Assembly (NCBI GenBank): GCA_013289095.1 | Contig: JABDAO010000016.1 | Location: forward strand, 1 to 38,806 | Length of the DNA: 38,806 nt | Reading direction: 5' to 3' | Source of the DNA: Bacteroidota bacterium | GTDB lineage: Bacteria > Bacteroidota > Bacteroidia > Palsa-965 | Shown here: positions 18,609 through 34,440 of the stretch, piece by piece | How the letters are laid out: each line of letters starts with the position of its first letter | How positions within the stretch are numbered: position 1 is the first letter of the stretch | Translations under genes and position numbers: made by a program | The notes under the pieces: generated by a model | Database searches by the model: none | What the model was told of the DNA's origin: nothing | The model's input: only the letters and a program-made list of their open reading frames with translations

Positions 18609-18740
18609 ACTATTCAGCGCGTTTTTGGGTTTTAAACAACCATTCCAGAGGGGGTGGCAACATACACGAATACAAATTCCGGGTAAGGGGATAAGGCTTC
18701 TTAACTAAAAAATGACCGTGCTTTCAGCGGGTTACACTCC

Positions 18741-19201
18741 CTCGTACATACATTCTTCTACATCGTCATTACACGTTTTCCTTTCGTACATACATTCTTC
18801 TCTTTCATAACTACACCTTTCTCCTTCATAAATACATGCTTCTTCGTCGTCAATACACCCTTCTCCTTCATAAATACATGCTTCTTCTTCGTCAATACAG
18901 CCTTCTCCTTCATAAATACATGCTTCTCCTTCGTCAATACAGCCTTCTCCTTCATAAATACATGCTTCTCCTTCATAAATACACCCTTCTCCTTCATAAA
19001 TACATGCTTCTTCTTCGTCAATACACCCTTCTCCTTCATAAATACATGCTTCTCCTTCATAAATACACCCTTCTCCTTCATAAATACATGCTTCTCCTTC
19101 ATAAATACATGCTTCTTCTTCGTCAATACATCCTTCTCCTTCATAAATACATGGTTCGCCTCCGTCAATACCGCTTTCCTTTCGTAAATACGCCTTTCTC
19201 C
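18741..19201. repeat. 21-bp tandem repeat (minisatellite), about 22 units
   Basis: About 22 head-to-tail units of 21 bases lie here. Two unit classes alternate: TTCATAAATACATGCTTCTYC, and TTCGTCAATAC(AG/AC)CCTTCTCC with its variants. The central units from about 18825 to 19160 are nearly identical, while the outer units are diverged; one right-hand unit (19161-19180) has only 20 bases. Because the period is a multiple of three and the units lack stops in some frames, long frames are open on both strands (minus strand period EKHVFMK). A one-base deletion breaks the repeat register, and there is no start context or domain, so I treat it as non-coding. Confidence 0.8.
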
Positions 19202-19303
19202 TTTATACATGCAGCTTTCACTGTGTAAATACACGCGGTTGCCATGCAGTAGCACCCGACACGTCGACTGCAAGAACTGAGTTTCCACAAAATCCGTTCG
19301 TAA

Positions 19304-22833: not shown

Positions 22834-22902
22834 TGCGCTTAATTTTCCCGGCCAGTGTCCAAAGACCATCCACGTTCCATCAAGGAATCCCATCACCACC
22901 AT

Positions 22903-24852
22903 ATGAGTAAGGTTACTGCGGCCGGTCTGCTGGTAACGCTTGGAATTATCTTTGGCGATATTGGTACTTCTCCCTTGTATGTATTGAGTGAAGTAATTGG
23001 TACAGGACCCATTCATGGCGATATTATCCTGGGCGTTGTTTCCTGTATCTTCTGGACACTCACGCTTCAAACTACCTTAAAATATGTAATCCTTACCTTA
23101 AGGGCAGATAACAAAGGCGAAGGCGGGATCTTTTCGCTGTATGCCCTGGTCAGAAGAACCAAAAAGAAATGGTTGCTGTTTCCTGCCATCATCGGTGGAA
23201 GCACCTTGCTTGCTGACGGCATCATCACTCCCCCTATTTCTGTGGCATCGGCCATTGAAGGCTTGAGAAACCTGAACCCGCATATCCCTACCATCAGCAT
23301 CACCATTGGCATACTGGTGGGTTTGTTTTTTATCCAGCAGTTTGGCACTTCGGCAATCGGCAAATTGTTCGGGCCAATCATGCTCGTCTGGTTTTCGATG
23401 ATCGGGGTGCTCGGGGCGATCCAGGTTTTTGGCGACATGAGCGTGCTCAAAGCCCTGAACCCCTACTATGCATACGATCTGCTGGCCAATCACCCCGGAG
23501 GTTTTTTACTCCTGGGCGCTGTGTTCCTGTGTACCACCGGGGCAGAAGCCTTGTATTCCGATCTGGGTCATTGCGGGAAAAGCAATATACGTGTAAGCTG
23601 GATCTTTGTAAAAGTCTGCCTGGTCTTGAATTACCTCGGTCAGGCTGCCTGGCTGATAGCACACGAAGGGAAACAGTTGCACGACATGACCCCGTTTTTT
23701 GCCATCATCGACTCCAGCATCCTGCCAGTTGCCATTGTTATTGCCACCAGCGCCGCCATCGTTGCCAGTCAGGCGCTTATCAGCGGGTCGTTTACGCTGA
23801 TCAACGAAGCCATCCGTCTGAATTTCTGGCCCAAGGTGAAGATTGTGTACCCTACAAACATCAAGGGGCAGCTTTATATCCCTTCCGTCAACTGGCTGCT
23901 CTGTGCCGGTTGTGTGGCTATTGTACTCTACTTCAAAGAATCGAGCCGTATGGCCGCAGCTTACGGTCTGGCCATTGTACTGACCATGTTGATGACCACT
24001 TCGTTGCTGACCTATTTCATGATCATCAAACGCTATTCGAAAGTATTTATCTTCTCCTGTCTGGCCGTGTATGTTACCATCGAAACATCCTTCCTTATTG
24101 CCAATATGCATAAGTTCAAGGATGGGGGGTGGGTCACGCTCATGATCGCAACAGGCCTGGTTACGGTGATGTGGGTTTGGTACGAGGCCCGCAGGATCAA
24201 GAACCGTTATGTTGAATTTGTAGAACTGAAAGATTACCTCAAACTCATCAACGACCTGAGCAAGGATATGGCCGTGCCCAAATACGCCACTCACCTGGTG
24301 TACCTTACCAGCGCAGATAATAAGGATGAGATCGAATCAAAGGTCATTTATTCCATTCTTCAGAAGCAACCCAAACGGGCCGATATCTATTGGCTGGTTC
24401 ACGTAGATGTGGTGGATGAACCTTACCGCATGGAATATGTGGTCACCGAAATTATCCAGAACGATGTGATCCGCGTTGATTTTCGTTTGGGTTTCAGGGT
24501 GGCGCCCCGTATCAATTTGCTGTTCCGCAAAGTGGTTCAGGACATGGTGTCCAACAAAGAAATGGATATCACCAGCAGGTACGAATCGCTTAACAAAAGC
24601 AATGTCATCGGCGACTTTATGTTTGTGGTGATGGAAAAATTCCTGAGCAGCGACAACGACCTGCCCATTTACGAAAAGATGATCCTCAAAGGATATTTTA
24701 TCCTGAAAGAATTCAGTATCTCTGAAGAAAAAGCCTTTGGTCTTGACACCAGCTCGGTAAAGGTAGAGAAGGTGCCGCTGGTCATATCCCCTCCCCGGGA
24801 GATCAATCTGAAACGGGTGTTTCCGAGCAGGAACACGAAGGTGCACGAGTGA
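22903..24852 (+). CDS. kup: Kup-type low-affinity potassium transporter
   Basis: A 649-residue inner-membrane K+ uptake protein, probably a proton symporter. The hallmark GIIFGDIGTSPLYVLSE begins the first helix. ALVRRTKKKW, GGSTLLADGIITPPISV, and GAVFLCTTGAEALYSDLGHCG are further conserved segments. About 12 helices span residues 1-430, followed by a hydrophilic cytoplasmic domain of about 220 residues. The frame also opens at a GTG at 22855, adding 16 residues with a HHHH run; the ATG at 22903 puts the first helix at the usual distance from the start, though the GTG cannot be excluded. It stands alone. Confidence 0.93.
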   Translation: MSKVTAAGLLVTLGIIFGDIGTSPLYVLSEVIGTGPIHGDIILGVVSCIFWTLTLQTTLKYVILTLRADNKGEGGIFSLYALVRRTKKKWLLFPAIIGGSTLLADGIITPPISVASAIEGLRNLNPHIPTISITIGILVGLFFIQQFGTSAIGKLFGPIMLVWFSMIGVLGAIQVFGDMSVLKALNPYYAYDLLANHPGGFLLLGAVFLCTTGAEALYSDLGHCGKSNIRVSWIFVKVCLVLNYLGQAAWLIAHEGKQLHDMTPFFAIIDSSILPVAIVIATSAAIVASQALISGSFTLINEAIRLNFWPKVKIVYPTNIKGQLYIPSVNWLLCAGCVAIVLYFKESSRMAAAYGLAIVLTMLMTTSLLTYFMIIKRYSKVFIFSCLAVYVTIETSFLIANMHKFKDGGWVTLMIATGLVTVMWVWYEARRIKNRYVEFVELKDYLKLINDLSKDMAVPKYATHLVYLTSADNKDEIESKVIYSILQKQPKRADIYWLVHVDVVDEPYRMEYVVTEIIQNDVIRVDFRLGFRVAPRINLLFRKVVQDMVSNKEMDITSRYESLNKSNVIGDFMFVVMEKFLSSDNDLPIYEKMILKGYFILKEFSISEEKAFGLDTSSVKVEKVPLVISPPREINLKRVFPSRNTKVHE

Positions 24853-25198
24853 TCGGAGCACTTGCGCTGTGAACGACCGCATTATTTTACACCGCACCTT
24901 GACATGAAGCGCGATTCAATACGCTTAAATGAGTCTTCTGATCTTGATCCGCCGAACTGAATCTTGCCCGGAAACAATGTTTCTTCGATCTCATGTTGCA
25001 GCCTGAGTGATATCCGCCGATCATTCCTTCCCCGATGGAGGCAGAGCGGGCATGCCAGGAATCAAACATACCGGCAAGTGAGAGATTTCAATAATTTAAT
25101 AGCTATATTTAACTTCTGAAGTCATTGTTTACTTGCGGCTTTAGCGTGAAAGCGGAGCTGCCAGGGAGCTACAGCCATATATATCAAGGAGAAAAAGA
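24853..25198. other. Intergenic region between kup and the ATPase gene
   Basis: A 346-base stretch with no gene, RNA or repeat that I recognise. It ends with the Shine-Dalgarno sequence of the ATPase gene. It marks the left edge of the putative defence cassette. Confidence 0.5.
25186..25191 (+). promoter_or_regulatory. Strong Shine-Dalgarno sequence before the AAA ATPase gene
   Basis: AAGGAG lies seven bases before the ATG at 25199. Most genes of this window have no such site, as is usual in Bacteroidota, so its presence fixes the start and hints at a foreign origin. Confidence 0.6.
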
Positions 25199-26476
25199 AT
25201 GATTACAAGAATAGAAGCGAAAAATTTCAGGTGCTTGAAATATATCGAGCAACCACTTGGAAATTTCCATGTCGTCATTGGCGCAAATGCCAGCGGGAAA
25301 ACGACTTTTCTTGATGTTGTCAGTTTTCTTGCTGACATCGTGAGAGATGGGATTGATAAAGCTATCTATAACCGGGCATCGAACTACACAGATCTCACAT
25401 TTTCCGGCTCCGGAGGCGATATCGAGTTGGCGATTGAAGTAAAATTGCCGGAGCGTATTGTTGCACGTCTGACACATTCAACCTTTGATATCATTCGGTA
25501 TGAAATCTCAATCGGGTTGACGGACGATACCCATGAACATGCGATAAAGCAGGAACGGGCCATCTTATTGAATTCAGGCGTCGTTTACCCGAATTTGAAT
25601 GGATTTGCTCAACAGAGGGTTGGTTTTCCAGAGGCGACAGATGCTCCTCTTACATTGTTGAATAAAAAATACAAATCGACTACCTATAAATCGGTGATTA
25701 AGAAGAATCTCGGTGGCAATGATAATTTTTATCTCGAAACCAATAAGGATGCAGGGAAAGGATTTATGCCCTCATTCAGACTGGGAATAAAAAAGTCGGC
25801 ACTGGGAAATCTGCCTGCTGATGATACTAAATTTCCGGCATCCACCTGGCTTAAGAATTTTTTGCAGGAAGGAGTACAGCTCTTCGTGCTGGATAGTTTA
25901 ACTATGCGTGATCCCAGTCCCCCGGGTCAGTCGGTTCATTTCAAAACAGACGGCTCCAACCTGCCTTTTGTGATTGAAGATTTAAGAAAAGACAAAAATA
26001 AATTTACGCAATGGATTGAACACATTCAAACCGCATTGCCAGATATTGAGGACATTTCAACAGTTGAGCGGGAAGAAGATAAGAAGAGATATATAAAAAT
26101 TAAGTATAACACAGGGATCGAAGTGCCTAGCTGGCTGATTTCGGATGGAACACTGCGGTTAATGGCCCTTACCATTCCCGCTTATCTGCGTGCACTGAGC
26201 GGAGTTTTTTTGATCGAAGAGCCCGAGAACGGCATACATCCCAAAGCAATTGAAACCGTATTTTCATCCCTATCCTCTGTATATAATGCACAGATCCTGA
26301 TTGCTTCCCATTCGCCTATCGTTTTAGGCATGGTCAAACCGGAAGAGCTGCTATGCCTTGCGAAAACACCTGAGGGAATGACTGACATCGTCCTGGGAAT
26401 AAATCATCCCAGGTTGAGAGATTGGAAAGGCAATCCCAATTTATCTTTACTTTTTGCAAGCGGTATATTGTCATGA
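25199..26476 (+). CDS. AAA (OLD/RecF-like) ATPase of a two-gene cassette
   Basis: A 425-residue SMC/ABC-type ATPase. The start MITRIEAKNFRCLKYIEQPL is typical of OLD, RecF and AAA_21 proteins. Walker A is GANASGKTT at residues 28-36. Near the C-terminus are a signature-like LISDGTLRLMALTIPAYL, Walker B GVFLIEEPENGIHP and the switch histidine in ILIASHSPIVL. The middle (about 100-290) is a variable insertion where substrate or target sensing would occur. Its stop overlaps the next gene's start by four bases (ATGA), so the two are translationally coupled. ATPases of this type paired with a small nuclease-like protein are common in anti-phage systems. Defence is inference; the ATPase fold is clear. 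Confidence 0.9.
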   Translation: MITRIEAKNFRCLKYIEQPLGNFHVVIGANASGKTTFLDVVSFLADIVRDGIDKAIYNRASNYTDLTFSGSGGDIELAIEVKLPERIVARLTHSTFDIIRYEISIGLTDDTHEHAIKQERAILLNSGVVYPNLNGFAQQRVGFPEATDAPLTLLNKKYKSTTYKSVIKKNLGGNDNFYLETNKDAGKGFMPSFRLGIKKSALGNLPADDTKFPASTWLKNFLQEGVQLFVLDSLTMRDPSPPGQSVHFKTDGSNLPFVIEDLRKDKNKFTQWIEHIQTALPDIEDISTVEREEDKKRYIKIKYNTGIEVPSWLISDGTLRLMALTIPAYLRALSGVFLIEEPENGIHPKAIETVFSSLSSVYNAQILIASHSPIVLGMVKPEELLCLAKTPEGMTDIVLGINHPRLRDWKGNPNLSLLFASGILS

Positions 26477-27090
26477 AAGATCTGATTATTGCGGTGGCCG
26501 ATGGATATCAGGAAAAAGTGATGGAAGCATTGCTCCCAAGGGTTCCGTTGAGTTCCGGAACCAGGCCTTTTAGCTATGATATTATCAAGAATCCTCTTCA
26601 TGATCCGGGGAGTTATAGTGATAGTCAGGAGCTGCTTCGTTCCTCAATCAAACAATATCGATATGCTCTGATAATTTTCGATTTTGAAGGAACTGGCGTT
26701 GAAGAACTTTCAAATCATCAGATTACCTCCGCTGTGAGTGGGTTGTTGAATTCGAACGGGTGGATGGATCGAAATGCGGTAATCGTTATTGAGCCGGAGC
26801 TTGAAAACTGGATGTGGATTGATAATCGGAATGTAGAGTTGGCCATTGGTTGGACAAGACCTGAATCACTCTATGATTGGGCAAGAGTGAAAGGATATTT
26901 GGAGGGAACCGCCACAAAACCTGTCAGACCGAAGGAGGTTTTGGAAGAGGCACTGAAAATATCGGAGACATCGAAATCGGCATCGATCTACAAGAAAATT
27001 GCATCCAGTGTTTCCTACAATAAATGTGAGGATCCAGCTTTGAAGAAGTTGATAAATCAATTGATAGAATGGTTTCCCCCTGACACGTAA
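26473..27090 (+). CDS. Putative TOPRIM-like partner of the AAA ATPase
   Basis: A 205-residue protein of no certain family. It starts with a beta strand (LIIAVADGYQEKVMEALL), has HDPGSYSDSQELLRS at 43-57, then a buried strand ending in acidic residues (YALIIFDFEG, D70 and E72). A further strand, AVIVIEPELENWMW, carries E109 and E111. Alternating strands ending in acidic pairs, and ELENWMW resembling the FExWLL segment of RloB, suggest a TOPRIM-like metal-dependent nuclease fold. The C-terminal half is helical and lysine/glutamate-rich. The ATG at 26473 overlaps the ATPase stop. I recall similar proteins beside AAA ATPases in other genomes but cannot name the family with confidence. Confidence 0.7.
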   Translation: MKDLIIAVADGYQEKVMEALLPRVPLSSGTRPFSYDIIKNPLHDPGSYSDSQELLRSSIKQYRYALIIFDFEGTGVEELSNHQITSAVSGLLNSNGWMDRNAVIVIEPELENWMWIDNRNVELAIGWTRPESLYDWARVKGYLEGTATKPVRPKEVLEEALKISETSKSASIYKKIASSVSYNKCEDPALKKLINQLIEWFPPDT

Positions 27091-27195
27091 CAGTTTTGTC
27101 ACGCTTTAGAGAATTTCACCCGTTTAGCCGTAAAAGTCATTCTTCTGGATCAACTTTCTTGAATATCAGTAACTTCGTCCAGAGACACGCTTAAG

Positions 27196-29301
27196 ATGCC
27201 GAATGCATTCCTCCAGACTCCCGTTGAATACCTGAAAGGGGTAGGCCCGTTACGCGCCGAACTCCTGAAAAAGGAGATGGGCATTTTTACCTATGGCGAC
27301 CTGCTCACTTTGTATCCATTCAGGTACGTTGATCGTACTAAATTTCATGCAATCAAAGACATTTCACCCGACCTGCCTTATGTACAGCTTCGTGGGCGGT
27401 TTGTGCGTGTGAAGACAATCGGCGAAAAACGCGCCAAGCGTCTTTCGGCCAGCTTTGTCGATTCATCAGGCGAGATCGAGCTGGTATGGTTTCAAGGCAT
27501 CAAATGGATTGCAGATAAATTTAAAGGAGATAAGGAATACATCGTCTTCGGGAAACCCCAGCTCTATAACAACAAATGGAATATTGCCCACCCCGAAGTG
27601 GAAGAGGTGAGCGAAGAGAATACACGGTTGGCCAACGCCCTCCAACCTGTTTATCCAAGCACGGATAAAATGAAGGAAAAGGCTCTCGACACCAAAGGCA
27701 TCGCCCGGTTGATGAAGCCCCTGGTTGCATTGCTGGACGGAAAAATAGAAGAGATCATACCCCCTGCGGTGATGAGCCAGATGAAACTGATGGACCGCGA
27801 AGAGGCAATGCGTCAGATACACCTGCCCTCCGCTCCCGAACGGCTGCAAAAGGCCGAATTCAGATTAAAATTCGAAGAACTGTTCTTCCTCCAGCTAAAG
27901 CTGCTGAAGGTGAAAGCGCAGCACCATGTGGAATATAAGGGCTATGTATTCCCTACAGTGGGCGAGAAATTCAATGAGTTCTATAAAGAACATTTGCCCT
28001 TCCCCCTGACCAATGCACAAAAACGCGTGATCAAGGAAATACGGCATGACATGGGTTCGGGAAAGCACATGAACCGGCTCCTGCAGGGTGATGTAGGAAG
28101 CGGTAAAACACTCGTGGCGCTGATGAGTATGCTGATTGCGATCGACAACGGTTTTCAGGCAGGCATCATGGCCCCTACCGAGATCCTTGCACACCAGCAT
28201 TACGAGACCATCTCGGAGTTTGTAAAGAATATGGATGTAAAGGTGGGACTCTTCACCGGTTCTACGAAGAATGCACAACGCCGTGAACTCCATACCCTGC
28301 TGGAAAACGGCGAACTGGATATACTCATCGGCACACATGCCCTGATCGAAGACGGGGTCAAGTTTAAAAACATCGGGCTCATGGTGATTGATGAGCAGCA
28401 CCGTTTTGGTGTGGAACAACGCTCAAGATTGTGGCAGAAAAACATACAACCCCCGCATATCCTGGTGATGACGGCCACGCCCATACCCCGCACCCTGGCC
28501 ATGACCCTCTACAGCGATCTGGATGTATCTGTCATCGATGAGCTGCCTCCGGGGCGCAAACCGGTAAAGACCTTGCACCGCTACGATTCGCACCGCCTCG
28601 AGGTATTCGGTTTTATCCGCGATCAGATTAAACTTGGGCGTCAGGTCTATGTAGTCTATCCCCTGATCAAGGAATCGGAGACGATGGATTACAAAGACCT
28701 GCAGGATGGGTACGAAAGCATTTCCCGCGCTTTTCCCCTTCCTGAATACAAAGTGAGCATTCTGCACGGGCAAATGAAAGCCGAAGACAAGGATTTCGAA
28801 ATGCGGAGATTCGTGAAAGGCGAAACGCAAATTATGGTTGCCACAACGGTCATCGAGGTGGGAGTCAATGTGCCCAATGCCAGTATCATGATTGTAGAAA
28901 GCGCCGAGCGTTTTGGTCTTTCACAATTGCACCAGCTCCGGGGCAGAGTTGGGCGTGGCGCTGAACAGAGTTATTGTGTCTTGATGAGCTCGCACAAACT
29001 CAGCAGCGATGCCAAACTGCGCCTACAAACCATGGTGAGGACCAGCGATGGTTTTGAGATTGCCGATGTCGATCTGCGTCTGCGCGGCCCCGGCGATATT
29101 ACCGGAACCCAACAAAGCGGGATCCTGAACCTCAAAATAGCCGATATAACACAAGATGCGCAAATCCTGACCTATGCCCGGAATGCGGCCTCTTCCTTGT
29201 TGAAAGACGACCCGGATCTCCAAAAAACCGAGAACGTACCCGCAAGGACCCATCAGACCGAACTTCAGAAAGACAGGGCTACCTGGAGCAGGATCAGTTA
29301 A
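27196..29301 (+). CDS. recG: ATP-dependent DNA helicase RecG
   Basis: A 701-residue double-stranded DNA translocase that remodels stalled forks and Holliday junctions. The N-terminal wedge domain starts with LQTPVEYLKGVGPLRAELL and includes the OB-fold region (VQLRGRFVRVKTIGEKR). Helicase motifs are Q/I LTNAQKRVIKEI and Walker A GDVGSGKT (residues 298-305), MAPTEILAHQHYE, II VIDEQHRFGVEQR, III MTATPIPRTLA. The second domain has VVYPLIKESE, LHGQMKAEDKD and VATTVIEVGVNVPNA, then QLHQLRGRVGRG. The C-terminal RecG motif (LRGPGDITGTQQSG) is intact. It starts 105 bases after the putative defence cassette and is likely chromosomal core. Confidence 0.97.
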   Translation: MPNAFLQTPVEYLKGVGPLRAELLKKEMGIFTYGDLLTLYPFRYVDRTKFHAIKDISPDLPYVQLRGRFVRVKTIGEKRAKRLSASFVDSSGEIELVWFQGIKWIADKFKGDKEYIVFGKPQLYNNKWNIAHPEVEEVSEENTRLANALQPVYPSTDKMKEKALDTKGIARLMKPLVALLDGKIEEIIPPAVMSQMKLMDREEAMRQIHLPSAPERLQKAEFRLKFEELFFLQLKLLKVKAQHHVEYKGYVFPTVGEKFNEFYKEHLPFPLTNAQKRVIKEIRHDMGSGKHMNRLLQGDVGSGKTLVALMSMLIAIDNGFQAGIMAPTEILAHQHYETISEFVKNMDVKVGLFTGSTKNAQRRELHTLLENGELDILIGTHALIEDGVKFKNIGLMVIDEQHRFGVEQRSRLWQKNIQPPHILVMTATPIPRTLAMTLYSDLDVSVIDELPPGRKPVKTLHRYDSHRLEVFGFIRDQIKLGRQVYVVYPLIKESETMDYKDLQDGYESISRAFPLPEYKVSILHGQMKAEDKDFEMRRFVKGETQIMVATTVIEVGVNVPNASIMIVESAERFGLSQLHQLRGRVGRGAEQSYCVLMSSHKLSSDAKLRLQTMVRTSDGFEIADVDLRLRGPGDITGTQQSGILNLKIADITQDAQILTYARNAASSLLKDDPDLQKTENVPARTHQTELQKDRATWSRIS

Positions 29302-33208: not shown

Positions 33209-33754
33209 GTGAGAAAATTATCAGCTTTGTTTGTTATCCTTTGTGTCGTGTTTGGTTCTTGTAAACGGGAGCAGAATTTTTCGGTTGTACCCTACATCAG
33301 CTTTGTGGATTTTACAAAATATGGGGCAGATTCAGCCATCGTCAGGATAAAATTTACGGATGGCGACGGTGATATTGGTCTTGACCCAACTGATTTATCA
33401 CCACCCTATAACATCGGGTCGCGTTATTACGCTGATTTGTTCCTGGTATATTATTATCTCGATCCGGAGAGTAATACCTGGAAGGTATACAATAACAATA
33501 TCACCAACACCAACTCGACCCAGTTCGACACGATGCAGTATACCTACCGCATCCCGAACCTCACCCAGAGCGGGCAAAATCAAAGCCTACAGGGCGAGAT
33601 TAAGGTGGCAATTCCAGCCCCTTATTGTCTGACCGGGTCTGTATTATTTCCACATTCACCTCCTGCCCCCCAATTTATGTATAAGATCACACTGGTTGAC
33701 CGGGCGCTTCACGTCAGCAATACGGTACAAACCGGGCCTATTTCCTACCCCTGA
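33209..33754 (+). CDS. Lipoprotein of a tandem pair (DGDGD-containing), copy 1
   Basis: A 181-residue lipoprotein of unknown function. A short signal peptide ends in the lipobox VFGSC with C18. Then follow SVVPYISFVDFTKYG, a calcium-loop-like FTDGDGDIGLDPTD, the strand ADLFLVYYYLDPESNTWKVY, and the C-terminal LTQSGQNQSLQGEIKVAIPAP and MYKITLVDRALHVSN. The GTG at 33209 is the only plausible start, because an ATG eight bases upstream is out of frame and closes at once. It shares most motifs with the next gene, from which it is separated by 158 bases. The DGDGDIG segment suits divalent metal binding; this is inference. Confidence 0.75.
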   Translation: MRKLSALFVILCVVFGSCKREQNFSVVPYISFVDFTKYGADSAIVRIKFTDGDGDIGLDPTDLSPPYNIGSRYYADLFLVYYYLDPESNTWKVYNNNITNTNSTQFDTMQYTYRIPNLTQSGQNQSLQGEIKVAIPAPYCLTGSVLFPHSPPAPQFMYKITLVDRALHVSNTVQTGPISYP

Positions 33755-33887
33755 GCGGCAGTATCGGTATCAGAGCAGTAAGCGAAATATGTGGGTACGG
33801 GAGGTTTCCTGATCCTGGCTGGCAGAAAACAGGGGGGCAGAGAACCCGTTTTATTCATCTTCTGATTTTGGTTAAGAGATAATTAAG

Positions 33888-33895
33888 TACTTTTA
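33888..33895 (+). promoter_or_regulatory. Candidate -7 box before lipoprotein copy 2
   Basis: TACTTTTA differs by one base from TAnnTTTG, and a TTTG at 33867-33870 lies 17 bases upstream, giving an acceptable -33/-7 pair. The same TACTTTTA occurs 33 bases before copy 1, suggesting shared control. Confidence 0.35.
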
Positions 33896-33912
33896 TACAT
33901 CAATTTCAGCTC

Positions 33913-34440
33913 ATGAAGCGGTTTTTTGCAAGCATCCTGGTACTTTCGGTGATTTTGACGATTGTTTTTTCTTCCTGCAAGCAGGAACAGAATTTTTCGA
34001 TTGTTCCCGCAATTTCTTTTGTTTCATTCACCAAATACGGTTTCGATTCGGCGGTCTGTAAGATCGATTTTCTGGACGGAGATGGTGACGACGGTCTTGA
34101 TCCGTTTGATACTGTTCCTCCATTCAATCTCAACTCATACGATAACTCCGATCTGTTTTTGGTTTATTATTATCTCGATACCATCTCTAAAAGCTGGAAG
34201 GTCTATAATCTGCACCCCTCAGACACAAGCCGTGCGAATTTCGATACCCTTCAGTTCAGATACCGCCTTCCAAATCTGACCCAGAACGGACAAAAGCAAA
34301 GCCTACAGGGGGAGATCAAGGTTGCCATGCCTGGTCCTTATGCAATCCCAGGCTTGACGGGCAAATATCAGATCACCATGGTCGACCGTGCCCTGCATCG
34401 GAGCAATATGGTCCAAACAGGAAGCTTTACCTTCCCGTAA
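33913..34440 (+). CDS. Lipoprotein of a tandem pair (DGDGD-containing), copy 2
   Basis: A 175-residue paralogue of the preceding gene with lipobox VFSSC at C22. Shared blocks are EQNFSIVPAISFVSFTKYG, FLDGDGDDGLDPFDTVPPFN, LFLVYYYLDTISKSWKVY, LPNLTQNGQKQSLQGEIKVA and ITMVDRALHRSNMVQTG. The start ATG at 33913 and the signal peptide are clear. It differs from copy 1 mainly in the middle (about 95-105) and in a shorter loop before the last strands. The pair most likely arose by tandem duplication. Its role is unknown; it is not similar to any T9SS protein that I know. Confidence 0.75.
   Translation: MKRFFASILVLSVILTIVFSSCKQEQNFSIVPAISFVSFTKYGFDSAVCKIDFLDGDGDDGLDPFDTVPPFNLNSYDNSDLFLVYYYLDTISKSWKVYNLHPSDTSRANFDTLQFRYRLPNLTQNGQKQSLQGEIKVAMPGPYAIPGLTGKYQITMVDRALHRSNMVQTGSFTFP

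Follow-up and report, generated by a model that had tools for sequence, protein, structure and literature searches.

We identified a solitary two-gene module in a Bacteroidota genome that encodes an ABC/OLD-type ATPase of the MAD3 family and a predicted Toprim nuclease of the MAD4 family. The pair lies alone, as an insertion, between kup and recG in the window (the whole stretch of 38,806 nucleotides that was analysed). Dozens of other bacteria carry it in the same solitary state, which suggests that the pair functions in defence on its own. We consider it probable (roughly 0.7) that MAD3 and MAD4 form an autonomous anti-phage module of an ATPase sensor and a Toprim nuclease. Databases record both only as the third and fourth components of MADS, the eight-gene methylation-associated defence system against phage reportedly described by Maestri et al. 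in Cell Host Microbe in 2024.

An earlier note on this DNA had described two open reading frames that overlap by four bases between kup (22855-24852) and recG (27196-29301), preceded by 346 empty bases, and the sequence bears out this layout together with the coordinates of both genes. The two flanks are syntenic chromosome and both genes of the pair are intact; the assembly of the genome is 2.95 Mb and 62% complete. The Shine-Dalgarno site that had been proposed before the ATPase gene is clear, and no match to a Bacteroidota-type promoter was found upstream of the pair. The overlap of the two genes is likely to couple their translation.

25186-25201, plus strand: Shine-Dalgarno-like AAGGAG (25186-25191) and start codon of the ATPase gene (sequence)
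25199-26476, plus strand: MAD3-type ABC/OLD-family ATPase gene, 425 amino acids (NCBIfam, Pfam, AlphaFold/Foldseek)
26473-26476, plus strand: ATGA overlap (4 bases) of the MAD3 and MAD4 genes (sequence)
26473-27090, plus strand: MAD4-type predicted Toprim nuclease gene, 205 amino acids (NCBIfam, AlphaFold/Foldseek)

The ATPase scores 492.8 bits against the MAD3 equivalog of NCBIfam (NF047739, cut-off 420) and its partner scores 185.7 bits against the MAD4 equivalog (NF047734, cut-off 160). Since both genes exceed curated family cut-offs, the pair is far beyond chance. Pfam assigns the ATPase to AAA_21 (1e-30) / AAA_15, and among PADLOC models it matches HEC-01A best (6e-45) and also AriA (8e-33). 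The Walker A motif at residues 28-36, the Walker B EEPEN and the switch histidine that the earlier note had read from the translation are all present, with key residues that are invariant in 57 relatives. The Walker B motif LIEEPEN comprises residues 338-344, and the switch residue His371 and the adjoining S372 are invariant in the same relatives. The protein thus combines the elements expected of an OLD/ABC ATPase: Walker A, a Walker B with the catalytic Glu, a signature, the switch His and the fold. Its AlphaFold model (pLDDT 91.6) was matched by Foldseek to PtuA (Septu, retrons Eco7/Ec78), OLD, Rad50 and GajA (Gabija).

25280-25306, plus strand: Walker A GANASGKTT, residues 28-36 (from the translation; G28, N30, G33 and K34 invariant in 57 sequences)
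26141-26158, plus strand: degenerate ABC signature SDGTLR, residues 315-320 (S315 and G317 invariant in 57 sequences)
26210-26242, plus strand: Walker B / D-loop LIEEPENGIHP, residues 338-348 (E340, E341, P342, E343, H347 and P348 invariant in 57 sequences)

The partner matched the mad4 model of PADLOC at 9e-9. Pfam returned no family for it (neither DUF4276 nor RloB) and a direct sequence search against solved structures returned nothing. An AlphaFold model based on 73 sequences (pLDDT 95.6, pTM 0.90) shows an alpha/beta core that leads into a helical C-terminal part. When this model was compared with the PDB using Foldseek, the top two matches were both chains of the C-terminal Toprim region of Burkholderia OLD (6nk8; prob 1.00 and 0.99, TM about 0.5; E 3.2e-3 and TM 0.53 for the best match), and all other matches were weaker. 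As modelled, MAD4 therefore has a Toprim alpha/beta core, in agreement with the Toprim-like fold at which the earlier note had guessed.

The candidate active site departs from the canonical Toprim motif, a conserved Glu following strand 1 together with a DxD following one of the later strands, in that D10 replaces the Glu in 69 of 73 relatives and E72 varies. Among the acids that had been singled out in the earlier note, D70 is invariant in all 73 relatives and E109/E111 are invariant as well, whereas E72 is not conserved (E in 33, D in 10, H in 14). The invariance of E109/E111 is discounted, because the search pattern demanded PELE[NA]W; PELENW also occurs in four relatives found independently of the pattern (L007-L010). 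The list had further missed D10 (69/73) and D44 (73/73). Overall, D10, D70, E109, E111, K149 and K154 are invariant or nearly so, and E14 and E72 are variable.

26500-26502, plus strand: MAD4 Asp10, just past the first strand (2-8 in the model), at the Toprim Glu position (D in 69/73 relatives)
26680-26682, plus strand: MAD4 Asp70, first acid of the DxD position, at strand 62-70 in the model (invariant in 73)
26794-26811, plus strand: MAD4 PELENW, residues 108-113 with E109 and E111 (invariant, but served as search pattern)
26917-26934, plus strand: MAD4 KPxxPK, residues 149-154, candidate catalytic lysine(s) (K149, P150 and P153 invariant; K154 in 70/73)

The two-metal site of Burkholderia OLD is formed by E400/E404, D455/D457, T506-x-E508 and K562 (PMC6755086). 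Mapped by order, short spacings and fold, D10/E14 of MAD4 would correspond to E400/E404, D70/E72 to D455/D457, E109-x-E111 to T506-x-E508, and K149 or K154 to K562. This fit in order and spacing supports the reading of MAD4 as a Toprim nuclease, against which weigh the modest E value of the Foldseek match, the Asp at the place of the Toprim Glu and the variable second acid of the DxD.

The OLD Toprim match of the partner and the fit of both proteins to defence families agree with the earlier description of a two-gene cassette of an ATPase and a Toprim-like protein. The note had not named the exact relatives, MAD3/MAD4 of MADS and, at a greater distance, HEC-01A/B, a PADLOC candidate consisting of an ATPase and a DUF4276 protein. 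MAD4 proteins of relatives match the HEC-01A/B models at 5e-5 to 9e-4; the HEC-01B model gives E 0.0057 for the window's MAD4 and 5e-5 for the relative at L020, and MAD4 shares a D ... ExE ... P pattern with HEC-01B. By hhalign the similarity of MAD4 to DUF4276 is weak (P 0.011), yet above all 60 shuffles. The window's MAD4 differs from HEC-01B in having neither a Pfam DUF4276 match nor the VEG opening. PARIS (AriA-AriB), which is marked by an AriB-type partner that cuts tRNA and by an Ocr-type trigger, shares the plan of an ABC ATPase with a separate Toprim protein, but AriB is not among the best 50 PDB matches of MAD4, and its Toprim Glu (E26) is an Asp in MAD4. OLD and Gabija GajA resemble the pair in the Toprim region of OLD, the best solved match of MAD4, and in the matches of MAD3 mentioned above; in contrast to them, the window has two proteins instead of one, a replaced Toprim Glu and no helicase partner gene.

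RloA-RloB / AbiL is likewise a two-gene system of an ATPase and a Toprim-like protein. By sequence the partner is not an RloB protein, as MAD4 has no Pfam match to RloB and no detectable profile similarity to it (hhalign P 0.27). A true RloA-RloB pair is located elsewhere in the same genome (C50:15653-16177; L105, 1447-3448, minus strand), where RloB scores 83.8 bits, above the Pfam cut-off, and the ATPase gene overlaps upstream.

The genomic position of the pair was compared among related genomes, which the earlier note had proposed might lack the cassette between kup and recG.

24853-27195, no strand: kup-recG stretch, about 54-304 bases and without the pair in three congeners (insertion)

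The three congeners indeed have kup and recG almost joined (about 105, 304 and 54 bases apart) and no pair, so that the pair is an insertion and the window's genome has gained about 2 kb at this site. With this result and the modelled Toprim fold, two of the refuting conditions that the earlier note had set for itself turned out in its favour. Between the E2 gene and recG of two other genera in the family, no kup match was found. The GC3 of the pair (0.43-0.44) differs from that of neighbour genes (0.52-0.62). No flanking direct repeats of at least 9 bases, tRNA or recombinase gene were found at the insertion site. The distribution is patchy: among 59 genomes, comprising the window's own and its relatives, only the former has the pair, and MAD4 was detected in 4 of the 396 genomes of a phylum sample (the window's own included), each time without other MADS genes nearby.

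A single-sequence scan of genome contigs with MAD4 found nothing, and an alignment-based scan detected 139 relatives, from which 80 loci in at least 15 phyla were kept. This list was ranked by likeness to the window's MAD4 and is biased accordingly, and three of its loci repeat genomes of the phylum sample; the phylum sample and a Pseudomonadota sample were drawn evenly and are less biased. The MAD3 ATPase gene lies directly upstream of MAD4 in 78 of the 80 loci, the other two of which start at contig ends, and 47 of these 78 share the 4-base overlap. Distances among MAD3 proteins covary with those among MAD4 proteins (Mantel rho 0.51, p 0.001), as is expected of a unit, although shared host descent also contributes. 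The flanks of 50 loci are long enough to reveal MAD2 and MAD5, and a single one of these loci (L090, Burkholderiales) is a full MADS; the hits in the Pseudomonadota sample comprise four MADS (one cut by a contig end) and seven pairs without other MADS genes in the fetched flanks. Most solitary copies are surrounded by ordinary genes instead of lying in evident defence islands, which counts against a role in defence; the other scanned neighbours are ordinary genes as well (rpoC and genes for a class I tRNA synthetase, an exchanger and glycosyltransferases). The idea, taken from gene sizes, that Bacteroidota relatives lie within type I restriction operons proved wrong: their neighbours encode an outer-membrane protein, a BamG-like protein, glycosyltransferases and others. 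No relatives were found in phage records and viral contigs.

MADS is an eight-gene operon that includes the methylase MAD2, the specificity protein MAD5, the kinase MAD6, MAD7 and MAD8. As a reference we used an intact MADS on a Piscinibacter plasmid, which matched all eight models and carries MAD3-MAD4 between the methylase MAD2 and a specificity-like MAD5. The window's pair has the same gene order and overlap, with an identity of 38% (MAD3) and 34% (MAD4), but neither MAD1, MAD2 nor MAD5 to MAD8 lies beside it. Its scores above the MADS equivalog cut-offs might mean that it is what is left of a complete MADS after loss of the other six genes. We regard such an origin as very improbable. In a maximum-likelihood tree of 87 MAD3 proteins (a quick search, taken as unrooted and so giving no order of states), the nearest relatives of the pair are Bacteroidota; the window falls in a clade of ten Bacteroidota rows that are all solitary (SH-aLRT 99), whereas five full-MADS copies form a separate clade (SH-aLRT 100). 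By this tree, the window's pair is no recent leftover of a MADS. Within the full-MADS clade, a solitary pair from Thiomargarita (L070:3-8222), with genes for a large nSTAND-HEAT protein and for a protein without assigned role at its flanks, shows that the state does occur there, and is possibly a derived, released MADS pair. Against a remnant also speak the intactness of both genes and the absence of other MADS genes from the window and from 49 of the 50 loci whose flanks are long enough. The MAD6 and MAD7 models, which were positive in two full-MADS genomes (G448, G722), had no match in the 62% complete genome of the window, and MAD6 was also absent from two nearly complete genomes that hold the pair (G354, 97%; G405, 96%).

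The pair might instead depend on a methylase elsewhere in the genome and, as in MADS, serve as a restriction arm from which methylated self DNA is exempt. Some relatives indeed have a methylase beside them or fused to them. In an acidobacterial and a gammaproteobacterial genome (L084:10001-11689, L085:454-4104), MAD4 forms one protein with an HmaB-type DNA-adenine methylase (PADLOC); its neighbours are HmaC/DUF499- or DUF1156-type genes in L064, L079, L087 and L088, type III methylases in L041 and L048, and GmrSD in L051 (assignments for L079, L088 and L048 by clustering with scanned proteins). HEC-01 owes its name to its embedding in Hma loci, so that HEC-01A/B and MAD3-MAD4 seem to be two parallel forms of one idea. 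Most solitary loci, however, have no methylase neighbour, and the large methylase-like frame on contig C11 of the window's genome is a generic match to the MAD2 model (71 bits, cut-off 720), so that we think a methylase-dependent arm improbable. A housekeeping role in DNA repair or cell-cycle control, like that of the archaeal OLD-family ATPase Cran1 (PMC12796447), seems no likelier: the location of many copies among ordinary genes and the Rad50 match of MAD3 would suit it, whereas the very patchy presence, the insertion at a site that is empty in congeners, the odd composition and the kinship to MADS and HEC-01 proteins argue against it. More tentatively, and with the odds slightly against it, the autonomous pair may be an older module that was captured independently by MADS, Hma-like (HmaB fusions), DUF1156/DUF499 and type III methylase loci and that represents the restriction arm of MADS; current models would then mislabel solitary pairs.

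For the autonomous anti-phage module that we favour, PARIS offers a model of action: there AriB, a Toprim nuclease, stays bound to a hexamer of the ABC ATPase and is set free by a phage protein (PMC12409363). By analogy, MAD3 would be the sensor and MAD4 the effector. MAD3 may assemble, bind and restrain MAD4 and sense infection, and a trigger would cause it to release or activate MAD4. As a putative two-metal Toprim nuclease, MAD4 might then cut nucleic acid, with host tRNA as the target in the manner of PARIS or DNA in that of OLD/Gabija, and thereby stop the production of phage at the expense of the cell. Larger methylation-based systems (MADS, Hma-like) would have incorporated related pairs as their likely effector arm.

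The association of an ABC ATPase with a Toprim protein in MADS has been stated before (PMC12409363); new here is the solitary, insertion-type MAD3-MAD4 pair in many phyla. A review lists as unknown the restriction mechanism of MADS, the way in which it stops phage once unmethylated DNA has been recognised (PMC12904381), and a two-gene version without methylation genes provides a small test system for this step. Caution is needed with NF047739 and NF047734, which label solitary Bacteroidota pairs "methylation-associated defense system" with no other MADS gene nearby. Two further features of the window were observed. A tandem array at 18737-19207, with a 42-base period (21-base sub-period) and about 11 copies, lies upstream of a pyruvate dehydrogenase gene and contains, on the minus strand, an open frame of MKEKHVF repeats. 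Two adjacent paralogous lipoprotein-like genes, encoding 181 and 175 amino acids, are located at 33209-34440.
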